Assembly: GCA_004213965.1 (NCBI GenBank)
Contig: SGZI01000007.1
Location: 1-33,640, forward strand
Direction: 5' to 3'
From: Flavobacteriales bacterium
GTDB taxonomy: Bacteria > Bacteroidota > Bacteroidia > Flavobacteriales > Flavobacteriaceae
Length of the DNA: 33,640 nucleotides
Part shown: piece by piece, positions 12,266 to 17,908 of the stretch
How the letters are laid out: each line of letters starts with the position of its first letter
Position numbering within the stretch: position 1 is the first letter of the stretch
Notes under the pieces: model-generated
Seen by the model: only the letters and a program-made list of their open reading frames with translations
The model's database searches: none
Told to the model about the DNA's origin: nothing
Position numbers and translations under genes: made by a program

Positions 12266-15200
12266 ATGATTTTTCCAGAATACAAAAAATTAGATTTATC
12301 CAAGATAAGCCAGGATATTCTATCCTATTGGGAACAGCATGATATTTTTAATAAATCTGTTTCTAATGCAGATGGAAAAACTCCATATATCTTTTATGAA
12401 GGGCCTCCATCAGCAAATGGATTGCCAGGAATTCATCATGTTTTAGCCAGAACAATTAAAGATATTTTTTTAAGATATAAAACCATGAAAGGATTTCAAG
12501 TAAAAAGAAAAGCTGGCTGGGATACTCATGGCCTGCCAGTTGAACTTGGTGTTGAAAATAGTTTAGGTATTTCTAAAGAAGATATTGGAAAAAAGATTAG
12601 TGTTGAAGACTATAATAAAGCTTGTAAGGAAGCTGTAATGAAGTATACAGATATATGGAATGATCTTACTAGGAAGATGGGTTATTGGGTAGACATGGAA
12701 AATCCATACATAACTTATACTTCAAAATATATGGAAAGTGTTTGGTGGCTGTTAAAACAGATCTATAGTAAAGACCTAATGTATAAGGGCTATACAGTCC
12801 AGCCTTATTCACCTAAAGCAGGTACTGCAATTAGCTCACATGAATTAAATCAACCTGGAACATATCAGGATGTTACAGATACTTCTGTAACTGCACAATT
12901 TAAAATTAAAAACAATAATCTCCCAGACTTTTTGAACAATGGAGAAGATGTTTTTGTATTAGCTTGGACAACTACTCCCTGGACATTGCCAAGTAATACT
13001 GCTTTAACAGTTGGCTCAAAGATTGATTATACTTTGATTAGAACCTTTAATCAATATACGTTTAAACCTATTCAGGTGATTTTGGCTACAGATTTAATTC
13101 ATAAATTATTTTCTGGGAACTATTTTGAAATTACTAATGAGTCTGATCTGTTGAATTATGAATCTAATTCGAAAAAAATACCTTTCTACATTGCTAATAA
13201 TTTTTTAGGAAAAGAATTATTAAATATTAAATATGAACAATTGTTAAGTTATGCTTTGCCTGCTGAAAATCCTGAAAACGCATTTAGAATTATTCATGGA
13301 GATTTTGTTACAACAAGCGATGGTACTGGGATAGTTCATACAGCCCCTACTTTTGGAGCAGATGATGCCTTAGTAGCAAAGCAAGCTAATCCTCAAATTC
13401 CACCAATGTTAATAAAAAACAGCGATGGAGATTTAGTGCCTCTAGTTGACCTTCAAGGAAGATTTAGACCTGAAATGAAAGAGCTTGCAGGAAAGTATGT
13501 AAAAAATGAATATTATAATAATGATAAAATTCCTGAAAAATCAGTTGATGTTGAAATTGCAATTATATTAAAGAAGGCCAATAGAGCGTTTAAGGTTGAA
13601 AAGTATAAGCATAGCTATCCTAATTGCTGGAGAACAGATAAACCAATATTATATTATCCAATAGATTCTTGGTTTATTAAGACTTCAAAAATTAGTGATT
13701 CAATGGTAACACTAAATAAAGAGATAAATTGGAAACCAAAATCAACTGGCGAAGGCAGGTTTGGTAAATGGTTAGAAAATGTTAATGACTGGAATTTATC
13801 AAGATCAAGATTTTGGGGAATACCATTACCTATTTGGAGAACTGAAAATGGTTCTGAAGAAATATGTATAGGATCATTAAAAGAGTTAAAAAAAGAAATA
13901 GATAAGTCTGTTAAAAATGGTTTTATGTCAAAAGATATTTTTTCAGATTTTGAACCAGAAAATTATTCAGACAAAAATTATGGTAAGATAGATTTACATA
14001 AAAATGTAGTAGATAAAATTATTTTAGTTTCTGAAAGTGGACATAAAATGTATCGAGAAACAGATCTAATTGATGTATGGTTTGATTCAGGTAGTATGCC
14101 ATATGCCCAATGGCATTATCCTTTTGAAAACAAAAACCTAATTGATAACAATAAATTTTATCCTGCAGATTTTATTGCTGAAGGAGTTGATCAAACTAGG
14201 GGGTGGTTTTATACGCTTCATGCAATTAGTTCTTTAGTCTTTAGCTCTAATGCATATAAAAATGTAGTTTCAAATGGCCTTGTTTTAGACAAGAACGGTC
14301 AAAAAATGTCAAAAAGATTAGGCAATGCAGTTGACCCGTTTAAAACATTAGAAAATTATGGAGCAGATGCAACGAGATGGTATATGATATCAAATTCAAA
14401 TCCTTGGGATAATTTAAAATTTGATATTGATGGGGTTGACGAGGTTAGAAGAAAATTCTTAGGCACTTTATATAATACATATTCCTTCTTTTCATTATAT
14501 GCAAATATTGACGGGTTTAGTTATAATGAAAAAAACATAGATCATAATGATAGGCCTGAAATAGATAGATGGATATTGTCTGAATTAAATTCATTAATTG
14601 CAAAGGTAGATGATTATTATAATGACTATGAGCCTACAAAAGCAGCAAGAGCAATCTCAGAATATGTTATAGAATATTTAAGTAATTGGTATGTTAGGCT
14701 AAGTAGAAGAAGATTTTGGAAAGGAGATTATGAGTCCGATAAAATTTCAGCATATCAAACTTTATTTACGGTCTTGTTGAACATCTCTAAAATTTCTGCT
14801 CCAATTGCTCCATTTTTTATGGACAAGCTTTATCAAGATTTGACTAAAAATATAGTTTCTAATAAAAAAGACAGTGTTCATTTAGAGTTCTTTCCCAAAG
14901 CAAACTCATCATTGATAGATTTAAAATTGGAAGATAAAATAAACTATGCTCAAAGAATTTCATCTCTTACGTTATCATTAAGAGCAAAGGAAAAGATTAA
15001 AGTAAGACAGCCATTAAATAAAATAATGGTACCAGTGAATAGTAATGAACAAAAAGAGCAAATTGAAGCAGTTAAAGAGTTAATAAAAAGAGAAGTAAAT
15101 GTCAAGAAAATTGAATTTATTGAAGGGCATTCAGATTTATTAATAAAAGAAGTAAAACCAAATTTCAAAACTTTAGGCCCTAGATTTGGTGCTGAAATGA

Positions 15201-15664
15201 AAGAAATTGCTGCTGTTGTTAAAAATTTAACTTCAGAGCAAATTCAAGATTTGGAAACTAGTTCTAAAATTGATTTAGTAATTAACAAAAAAAATGTTAT
15301 TTTCGATGTCACGGATTTTGAAATCTTATCAAATGACATTGAAGGATGGTTGGTGGCGCATGAAGGAAGCATAACTGTAGCATTAGATATTACTATAGAT
15401 GATGATTTGATTGACGAGGGCATATCTAGAGAAATAGTTAGCAGAGTACAAACTATCAGAAAGGAATCTGGGTTTGAAGTCACTGATAGAATTAAAATAT
15501 TTATGCTAGAAGATAAAAGAATATCTAGAGCAATAAATAATAATATTGAATATATAAAATCTGAAACATTAGCAAATTCTATTGAATTGATAAATAAGTT
15601 AGACAAAGGAATAGAAGTTGAATTTGATAAGATTAAAACAAAAATATTTTTAATAAAAGAATGA
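12266..15664 (+). CDS. ileS: Isoleucyl-tRNA synthetase, eukaryote-like type 2 with GIHH signature
   Basis: This enzyme charges tRNA-Ile in the cytoplasm. The 1132-residue length, the KMSKR loop (residues 680-684) and the absence of a C-terminal zinc-binding cysteine cluster fit the type 2 (eukaryote-like) class rather than the about 930-residue type 1 enzyme. The catalytic signature normally written HIGH reads GIHH here (55-58), with the first and third positions swapped. The CP1 editing domain (about 200-430) has TTPWTLPSNTAL and GTGIVHTAPTFGADD. Other class I signatures are RKAGWDTHGLPVE, AEGVDQTRGWFYTLHA and the anticodon-binding region after about residue 760 (EIDRWILSEL). A 4-bp gap leads to the DksA-like gene. 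Type 2 enzymes are generally insensitive to mupirocin; resistance here is inference. Confidence 0.97.
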   Translation: MIFPEYKKLDLSKISQDILSYWEQHDIFNKSVSNADGKTPYIFYEGPPSANGLPGIHHVLARTIKDIFLRYKTMKGFQVKRKAGWDTHGLPVELGVENSLGISKEDIGKKISVEDYNKACKEAVMKYTDIWNDLTRKMGYWVDMENPYITYTSKYMESVWWLLKQIYSKDLMYKGYTVQPYSPKAGTAISSHELNQPGTYQDVTDTSVTAQFKIKNNNLPDFLNNGEDVFVLAWTTTPWTLPSNTALTVGSKIDYTLIRTFNQYTFKPIQVILATDLIHKLFSGNYFEITNESDLLNYESNSKKIPFYIANNFLGKELLNIKYEQLLSYALPAENPENAFRIIHGDFVTTSDGTGIVHTAPTFGADDALVAKQANPQIPPMLIKNSDGDLVPLVDLQGRFRPEMKELAGKYVKNEYYNNDKIPEKSVDVEIAIILKKANRAFKVEKYKHSYPNCWRTDKPILYYPIDSWFIKTSKISDSMVTLNKEINWKPKSTGEGRFGKWLENVNDWNLSRSRFWGIPLPIWRTENGSEEICIGSLKELKKEIDKSVKNGFMSKDIFSDFEPENYSDKNYGKIDLHKNVVDKIILVSESGHKMYRETDLIDVWFDSGSMPYAQWHYPFENKNLIDNNKFYPADFIAEGVDQTRGWFYTLHAISSLVFSSNAYKNVVSNGLVLDKNGQKMSKRLGNAVDPFKTLENYGADATRWYMISNSNPWDNLKFDIDGVDEVRRKFLGTLYNTYSFFSLYANIDGFSYNEKNIDHNDRPEIDRWILSELNSLIAKVDDYYNDYEPTKAARAISEYVIEYLSNWYVRLSRRRFWKGDYESDKISAYQTLFTVLLNISKISAPIAPFFMDKLYQDLTKNIVSNKKDSVHLEFFPKANSSLIDLKLEDKINYAQRISSLTLSLRAKEKIKVRQPLNKIMVPVNSNEQKEQIEAVKELIKREVNVKKIEFIEGHSDLLIKEVKPNFKTLGPRFGAEMKEIAAVVKNLTSEQIQDLETSSKIDLVINKKNVIFDVTDFEILSNDIEGWLVAHEGSITVALDITIDDDLIDEGISREIVSRVQTIRKESGFEVTDRIKIFMLEDKRISRAINNNIEYIKSETLANSIELINKLDKGIEVEFDKIKTKIFLIKE

Positions 15665-15668
15665 AGTT

Positions 15669-16049
15669 ATGGCAGTAAAAAGCACAAGATATTCTGATAA
15701 AGATTTAGAAAAATTTAGAGCATTAATTTTAGATAAAATTGATAAAGCAAAACATGATTTGGAATTAATAAAAAGCGCATATATGAATGATCATAATAAT
15801 GGTACGGAAGATACAGCACCTACTTTTAAGGCTTTTGATGAAGGGAGTACTGTTATGAGTAAAGAATCTAATTCACAACTCGCATTAAGGCAAGAAAAAT
15901 TTATTAGGGATTTAAAAACTGCATTAATCAGAATTGAAAATAAGACCTATGGTATATGTAGAGTTACAGGAAAATTAATTAGTAAGAGGAGGCTCAAATT
16001 AGTACCACATGCTACTTTAAGTATTGCAGCTAAAAACATGCAAAAATAA
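15669..16049 (+). CDS. TraR/DksA family protein with a degenerate zinc finger
   Basis: A 126-residue protein resembling DksA/TraR regulators, which enter the RNA polymerase secondary channel. It has an N-terminal helical part (residues 8-40, then 62-93) for the coiled coil, with an acidic, glycine-containing tip region (NGTEDTAPTFKAFDEGS, 44-60). The C-terminal domain keeps the family outline (YGICRVTGKLI, then LVPHATLSI). Only Cys97 of the four zinc-finger cysteines is present; the others are replaced by Gly101-region and Lys/His residues. I recall that many Bacteroidota homologues look the same, so it may fold without zinc. It is translated 4 bp after ileS. In many relatives lspA follows; here uvrC does. 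Confidence 0.88.
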   Translation: MAVKSTRYSDKDLEKFRALILDKIDKAKHDLELIKSAYMNDHNNGTEDTAPTFKAFDEGSTVMSKESNSQLALRQEKFIRDLKTALIRIENKTYGICRVTGKLISKRRLKLVPHATLSIAAKNMQK

Positions 16050-16078: not shown

Positions 16079-17908
16079 ATGGATGTTAAGAGTTTAAAAA
16101 TCATTTCCAAAAACCTTCCAAGTAATCCTGGGGTATATCAATTTCTAGATTCGAAAAATAAGATTATTTATATAGGAAAAGCTAAAAATTTAAAAAAGCG
16201 AGTAAGTTCATATTTTTCTAACCAAGGCCATACCGGAAAAACAGCTAAATTAATTTCTAATATATCTTTTATAAAACATATAATTGTAAAGACTGAATCA
16301 GATGCTTTATTATTAGAAAATAATTTAATTAAAAAGCACAAACCCAAATATAACATTCAATTAAAAGACGGAAAATCTTACCCATGGATATGTATTAAAA
16401 ATGAAAGGTTCCCAAGATTATTTATAACAAGAAAATTATTAGATGATGGATCTGAATATTATGGGCCATTTACTTCAATAAAAACTGTGAATGTGTTAAT
16501 TGATTTAATAACTAGTTTGTTTCCAATAAGGTTAAGTAATTATAATCTAACAGAAAAAAAAATCAACAATCCAAAAGACGAACTAACTCTAAGGTTATTC
16601 AGAAGAAATGGACATTCAATAATTCTTGGTTTTAATATAGGAGATGTAATAAAATCAAATGAGCTTAAGATAACAGAAGATCAATATTTGCGAAATATTG
16701 ATTCAGTTAAAGAAATTCTTAAAGGGAAATTCAGTCAATTTAAAACTGAAATGAAGCAAAGAATGAAGAAATTTTCAAATAATATGGATTTTGAAAAAGC
16801 TCAAGAAATTAAAGAAAAAATAGCTGCACTAGAGAATTATCAATCTAAATCTACAATAGTTAATCCAAAAATAAATAACATTGATGTTTTTACAATTATT
16901 TCTGAAAATGATTATGCATATATTAATTTTTTACAAATTTCTTATGGATGTATAGTAAGATCATATAATACTGAAATAAAGAAGAAATTAGATGAGAATG
17001 ATAATCAAATATTAGAATTAGGCATTTTTAATATTAGGTCAAAATTTAATTCTAAATCAAATGAAATCTATACTAATATTAGTATAGATTTAGAAAAAAA
17101 CATAAAGATATCTTTGCCAAAAAGTGGAGACAAAAAACATATTGTTGATTTGTCTTTAAAAAATGTTAAGCATTTTAGAATTAATCAACTTAAGCAAAGG
17201 AAACATATAGACCCACAATCACACTACAAAAGAATCTTAAATCAAGTAAAATTAGATTTAAGCTTAAAAAAGGAGCCTTTTCATATTGAATGTTTTGACA
17301 ACTCAAATTTACAGGGCACTAACTCTACTTCAGCATGTGTAGTTTTTAAAAATGCTAGACCAAATAAAAAAGAATACAGGCATTTTAATATAAGGCAAGT
17401 TGTTGGAGTGAATGATTATGCAATGATTCAGGAAGTAGTATATAGAAGATATTCAAGATTATTAAAAGAAAAAAGGTCATTGCCTGAACTAGTCATCATA
17501 GATGGAGGAAAGGGACAACTTTCTTCTGCACTGGATGCATTAATAAAATTGAAATTAGAAAAAAAAATAGTTTTAATAGGAATTGCAAAAAGATTAGAAG
17601 AAATATATTTTGTCAATGACCCCACTCCTTTATATTTAAATAAGAGATCAGAGACACTTAAATTAATTCAACAATTAAGAAATGAAGCACATAGGTTTAG
17701 CTTAAAACATCATAGGAATAAGCGAGCTAATAGTCTTATTAGAAATGAATTAGAACAAATAAAAGGGATTGGGGGGAAAACAATTATAGATTTATTAAAT
17801 CAATTTAAATCCAATAAAGGAATTTCAATTGCAAAGCTAAAGGATCTTAAAAAAGTTGTTGGAAATTCTAGAGCATTATTGATATATAACTATTATAAGT
17901 CTAGATAA
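16079..17908 (+). CDS. uvrC: Excinuclease ABC subunit C lacking the four-cysteine cluster
   Basis: UvrC makes both incisions in nucleotide excision repair after UvrB loads on damage. The 609 residues contain an N-terminal GIY-YIG nuclease (GVY 18-20, YIG 31-33, Arg41, Glu80), a UVR/UvrB-binding motif (about 225-255), an RNase H-like second nuclease (DNSNLQG with Asp407, IIDGGKGQL with Asp475, NEAHRF with His538) and a C-terminal helix-hairpin-helix (IKGIGGKTIIDLL, 561-573). All catalytic residues are in place. The segment between the GIY-YIG and UVR parts, which in E. coli UvrC holds Cys154/166/174/178, is rewritten: residues 149-205 contain no cysteine and are about a dozen residues longer. 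No frameshift explains this. It starts 29 bp after the DksA-like gene. Confidence 0.95.
   Translation: MDVKSLKIISKNLPSNPGVYQFLDSKNKIIYIGKAKNLKKRVSSYFSNQGHTGKTAKLISNISFIKHIIVKTESDALLLENNLIKKHKPKYNIQLKDGKSYPWICIKNERFPRLFITRKLLDDGSEYYGPFTSIKTVNVLIDLITSLFPIRLSNYNLTEKKINNPKDELTLRLFRRNGHSIILGFNIGDVIKSNELKITEDQYLRNIDSVKEILKGKFSQFKTEMKQRMKKFSNNMDFEKAQEIKEKIAALENYQSKSTIVNPKINNIDVFTIISENDYAYINFLQISYGCIVRSYNTEIKKKLDENDNQILELGIFNIRSKFNSKSNEIYTNISIDLEKNIKISLPKSGDKKHIVDLSLKNVKHFRINQLKQRKHIDPQSHYKRILNQVKLDLSLKKEPFHIECFDNSNLQGTNSTSACVVFKNARPNKKEYRHFNIRQVVGVNDYAMIQEVVYRRYSRLLKEKRSLPELVIIDGGKGQLSSALDALIKLKLEKKIVLIGIAKRLEEIYFVNDPTPLYLNKRSETLKLIQQLRNEAHRFSLKHHRNKRANSLIRNELEQIKGIGGKTIIDLLNQFKSNKGISIAKLKDLKKVVGNSRALLIYNYYKSR

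Follow-up and report, generated by a model that had tools for sequence, protein, structure and literature searches.

The window analysed here, a stretch of 33,640 nucleotides from a Flavobacteriales bacterium, carries on its forward strand a uvrC gene (16079..17908) with an open reading frame of 609 codons' worth of protein (609 aa). The assignment is supported by a curated model (TIGR00194, the NCBIfam equivalog for uvrC, matched at 432 bits against a cut-off of 285) as well as by four Pfam matches, namely GIY-YIG, UVR, UvrC_RNaseH and UvrC_RNaseH_dom. The GIY-YIG nuclease domain (PF01541, residues 17–92, 16127..16354) retains R41 and E80, and the RNase H endonuclease domain (PF08459, residues 394–541, 17258..17701) retains D407, D475 and H538, so all five catalytic residues checked are in place, as the initial annotation had stated. 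Between these domains lie the UVR motif that contacts UvrB (PF02151, residues 223–253, 16745..16837) and the UvrC_RNaseH domain (PF22920, residues 267–366, 16877..17176).

Upstream of uvrC, on the same strand, are ileS (12266..15664) and, between the two, a dksA/traR-type zinc-finger gene (15669..16049, PF01258). uvrC lies no more than a few kb from ileS in nearly all genomes in which both could be placed, whether or not their UvrC bears the cysteines discussed below; the exception is G278, the assembly of which is fragmented. In two cases, G266 (C5:183847-187238) and L164 (G002), ileS appears to be broken by an in-frame stop or a change of frame, probably through assembly errors.

The unusual part of the protein is the stretch at residues 149–205 (16523..16693), the former iron-sulfur segment. 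The matching region of E. coli UvrC holds Cys 154, 166, 174 and 178. In an alignment with about 100 Flavobacteriaceae UvrCs, the window segment has none of the four, contains an insertion of 12 residues relative to cysteine-bearing relatives and does not have the NCxGPC motif; the pattern C..C..NCxGPC is seen in nearly all Flavobacteriaceae of the UvrC alignment (110 loci). This bears out three observations of the initial annotation: the missing cysteines, the gain of about a dozen residues and the disappearance of the NCKGPC-type motif. Of the four cysteines that mark a [4Fe-4S]-binding UvrC between GIY-YIG and UVR, not one is present in the window protein or in any congener. The window protein resembles E. 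coli UvrC in domain order, in both nuclease centres and in the UVR motif, but differs from it in having no equivalents of C154, C166, C174 and C178 and a segment longer by 12 residues, and no cluster is expected in it. A closer comparison is offered by the cysteine-bearing UvrCs of the Flavobacteriaceae, such as that of Mariniflexile fucanivorans (L033, 597 aa). They are orthologs with 58–60% identity, linked to ileS like the window gene, and have RTCNYDLSEKNIEAGKYKVCLEYHLGNCKGPCEG where the window protein has RLSNYNLTEKKINNPKDELTLRLFRRNGHSIILGFNIG.

The complete list of cysteines in the window UvrC comprises residues 105, 291, 405 and 420, and no other four are grouped close together in the sequence. 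We considered these four as substitute ligands and rejected them: C105, C405 and C420 are invariant in the cysteine-bearing relatives as well and therefore do not qualify, and the sites lie in different domains.

A run of nine adenines inside the segment (16554–16562, one base downstream of the position first given for it) makes a sequencing, assembly or frameshift artefact worth weighing. Such an explanation is virtually inconceivable, however, because the frame, its length and the cysteine-free segment are the same in six assemblies of the genus, down to 78% identity. All six genomes (6/6, 78–98% identity) encode a protein of 609 aa with no cysteine in the segment, including the separately assembled AG-319-B23 record (L031). 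The ratio dN/dS is 0.10–0.39 for the segment and 0.10–0.15 for the whole of uvrC; both are under purifying selection. Given the equal frame in six congeners and the low dN/dS, the window UvrC can be dismissed neither as a sequence error nor as a pseudogene, and a frameshift or assembly fault is ruled out in favour of the real divergence that had been proposed. When cysteine loss was mapped across the Flavobacteriaceae, as the initial annotation had suggested, the close relatives within the genus all proved to lack cysteines in this segment, in the same frame.

That annotation had also raised the prospect of a second, cysteine-bearing uvrC acting as the functional gene. We found none in the window genome or in five congeners, all of them incomplete assemblies: the window genome (65% complete) holds one copy of uvrC, and the congeners (65–84% complete) gave one UvrC match apiece. 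The larger Flavobacteriaceae mostly encode additional GIY-YIG proteins of about 450–500 aa that weakly match UvrC residues 1–100; assemblies of the window genus (G000–G005) are without them.

With its centre so divergent, the protein might be in decay or have been put to another use, its ability to incise damaged DNA gone, in a lineage that has lost nucleotide excision repair. In Helicobacter pylori, UvrC-dependent microimports need no nuclease sites (PMC9426483). We regard the loss of repair as very improbable here, since E80, D407, D475 and H538 are present in all 24 cysteine-less UvrCs examined (R41 in all that cover it, one fragment being too short), dN/dS across the whole gene is low and UvrB is retained. 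uvrB is present in all congeners; in the window genome itself it is a 171-aa end piece (G000:C49:5675-6163), presumably cut by the contig end, and it is whole in the congeners. Most likely, then, to judge from its conserved sequence, the window protein is a working nuclease that makes both the 3′ and the 5′ incision of UvrABC and carries no [4Fe-4S] cluster. In these flavobacteria, the iron-sulfur cofactor of UvrC appears to be dispensable.

The survey of this trait used a 60-aa query covering the cysteine segment against 397 Flavobacteriaceae genomes. It matched in 373, although in six of these the E-value was above 1e-10. Full UvrCs were then inspected from genomes with such a weak match or none, and from a few with middling matches; the latter had four cysteines in every case checked. 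The state could be read in 387 genomes, of which 367 are cysteine-bearing and 20, from 13 genera, cysteine-less; the other 10 have uvrC missing or cut. In a sample of 396 Bacteroidia genomes, the segment was matched in 384, and even the weakest matches inspected still have four cysteines. The rest consist of the window's own genome and genomes with uvrC missing or truncated, so no loss was found elsewhere in this sample.

Of the 24 cysteine-less sequences, 23 have none, and L113 and others have at most one cysteine in the wider stretch. They fall into three structural types. Type A is found in the window genus, G083, G009 with G417, G176, G095 and L042; here, the loop can still be recognised in its first half, with C replaced by S in 'RLSNYNL..KKIN', and the second half is swapped for '..LSLRLFRRNGHSIILGFN'. 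Type B comprises ten sequences of 577–600 aa in which about 20 residues are deleted, leaving 'YPFLNHELNHLLK'. Type C, known from two genomes of one genus, shows four substitutions and no indel. Similarity to the window segment is high within type A (z 12–34) and amounts to about −0.6 for type B and 1.2 for type C. By their sequences, A, B and C represent independent kinds of cluster-ligand loss. The initial annotation had treated the loss as an event of a single lineage, and this does not hold: it is repeated, in three forms, across 13 genera. The UvrC of L113 (G095) has a type A-like segment in which the second ligand position is still occupied by cysteine ('LCLNVH'), and may be an intermediate.

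A structure prediction was also carried out. AlphaFold places strands at residues 170–176 and 179–184 of the window UvrC, that is, a strand-turn-strand element in the replacement (residues 170–184, 16586..16630), with pLDDT of about 43–50 in this stretch and pTM of 0.39. Since confidence in the segment is low, the hairpin is tentative; the central loop of a cysteine-bearing relative is also modelled with low confidence.

Genome size is linked with the loss. All 20 cysteine-less assemblies are no larger than 2.3 Mb, as against 53 of the 367 cysteine-bearing ones (Fisher p 3e-16, kinship ignored; counts were made by hand, and sizes of metagenome-assembled genomes are lower bounds). The initial annotation had spoken of a streamlined marine lineage. 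Small genomes do characterise the cysteine-less group as a whole, but a marine origin is supported only for the window lineage, where it is read from open-ocean record names.

These two features, the small assemblies and the oceanic names, would fit the accompanying proposal of iron economy, by which streamlined ocean bacteria shed iron cofactors, the UvrC cluster among them. We consider it unlikely. The four cluster cysteines of MutY are kept in every cysteine-less genome with a whole MutY, the iron-sulfur assembly protein SufB scores above its cut-off in 26 of the 28 genomes examined (the other two are incomplete) and the 53 equally small genomes mentioned above keep a cysteine-bearing UvrC. 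Iron-sulfur proteins are therefore still made, which rules out their general loss and makes a general saving of iron unlikely; a repair protein of low abundance with a single cluster would presumably contribute little to it. A more likely reading is that loss of the cluster is tolerated, possibly with a gain from shedding an oxygen-sensitive cofactor.

How the cluster-free centres came to be distributed as they are is a separate question. In a UvrC tree built with the segment excluded, as well as in an IleRS tree, types A and B are both scattered. Cysteine-bearing G266 pairs with type A G009 and G417. G025 and G384, both cysteine-bearing, pair with G276 and G214 of type B, respectively, and L042 of type A stands beside cysteine-bearing L055. 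Even congeneric genomes differ in state in genera g5, g21 and g206.

Different parts of the gene gave different groupings. The tree of the outer gene unites L128 with L022 (100/99) and L131 with L118 (100/100); the tree of the segment flanks unites L128 with L125 (98/91) and places L131 among other type B sequences (97/99). AU tests on the outer gene rejected type B as a single clade (p 2e-49) and the pair L128 and L125 (p 0.006). On the inner part, L128 with L022 was rejected (p 0.033) and L131 with L118 was not (p 0.094). Informative sites outside the segment revealed foreign-like blocks at residues 131–321 of L128, 104–321 of L131, 133–234 of L042 and 105–249 of L023, each with p <= 0.0033 in a permutation test of 300 shuffles. 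The block of L111 is weaker (p 0.037 with one donor and 0.0033 with a second), and L113 showed no foreign block in this test. For the AU tests as well as the block test, the groups were chosen after inspection of the data. Two non-donor controls gave blocks as well, weaker ones (p 0.007–0.03) that are off-centre from the segment.

These patterns suggest that cluster-free centres spread between genera by recombination inside uvrC. Exchange of the centre is the simplest reading, its main rival being parallel loss with convergent replacement and no recombination. The latter agrees with the remainder of uvrC tracking the species proxy, and the blocks of sites could reflect co-adaptation of the flanks once the cluster was gone. 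It is less easily reconciled with motifs shared in detail by separate branches (PFLNHEL.HL.K of type B in three or more IleRS branches, and likewise NYN...KKIN...LGF of type A) or with flanking sites beyond the motif that switch allegiance too; parallel loss is thus possible but somewhat doubtful. As for the stronger form of the exchange reading, in which the cluster-free centre would be a transferable module passed among genera of small-genome flavobacteria and replacing the iron-sulfur loop in place, we see the chances as evenly balanced. If true, a repair enzyme can be freed of its need for a cofactor through horizontal exchange, besides losing it through gradual decay.

The same data bear on whether selection was involved. 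Relaxed selection and drift alone might have removed a dispensable cluster, with no benefit, from lineages of small population or small genome. Three unrelated outcomes, plain substitution (C) and deletion (B) among them, would fit this, and so would a remnant such as the ligand-position cysteine of L113. Yet the replacement segment is conserved (dN/dS as given above), type A recurs in distant branches and the foreign blocks suggest repeated uptake of a cluster-free centre, each of which goes beyond what decay would lead one to expect. On balance, we hold drift alone to be a conceivable account that falls short of probable.

Returning to tolerated loss in a working enzyme, we can outline how it may operate. 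The cluster of an ordinary UvrC would mainly give shape and stability to the loop that joins GIY-YIG to UVR. It may also adjust the binding of DNA or the sensing of redox state, and incision would go on without it. In type A, the hairpin-like insertion may assume the structural role, placing GIY-YIG relative to UVR; in type B, the loop would have been dropped and a shortened linker have taken over that role, and in type C the loop would be kept without ligands. With less certainty, the loss may be not just tolerated but favoured, an oxygen-sensitive cluster being a liability in small-genome aerobic bacteria, some of them from the surface ocean, and the cluster-free centres may afterwards have moved between genera via homologous recombination within uvrC.

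Silva and colleagues (JACS, 2020) reportedly call the cluster critical to UvrC, which counts against reading it as dispensable. Going by the title of the article by Silva, Grodick and Barton (2020, JACS; cited in PMC8837605 and PMC9426483), the cofactor of E. coli UvrC is an oxygen-sensitive [4Fe-4S] cluster. The iron-sulfur loop participates in complexes of UvrC with double-stranded DNA once the cofactor is bound (PMC9426483), and in the Deinococcus enzyme, nickel in place of iron is suggested to harm 3′ incision (PMC8837605). Natural cluster-free enzymes bear directly on both findings. Structure, DNA affinity and DNA-mediated redox signalling are the candidate roles of the cluster; three independent cluster-free designs beside cysteine-bearing congeners provide matched pairs for testing them. 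The existence of such proteins would imply that cells can make the incisions without the cluster. Our literature search, which did not cover the key 2020 paper, returned no earlier report of a cluster-free UvrC; because of this, and with a genome survey confined to Bacteroidota, the novelty is provisional.

MutY homologues without a [4Fe-4S] cluster exist. They are similar to the window UvrC in being DNA-repair enzymes that do without their usual cluster, but belong to another family and fold, and MutY retains its cysteines in the genomes studied here. In genus g206 (L217 in G214 and L219 in G384), the spacing in MutY is C-x5-C-x2-C-x5-C instead of C-x6-C-x2-C-x5-C. The latter motif is also absent from an endonuclease III-like protein of about 215–250 aa ('...DTHIHRLMYRWGLSSGKNV...YSPARGW...'; L224–L237 and L221–L223, e.g., G000:C52:27092-27472). 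This second family of repair enzymes without the usual cluster occurs in genomes with cysteine-bearing and cysteine-less UvrC alike.
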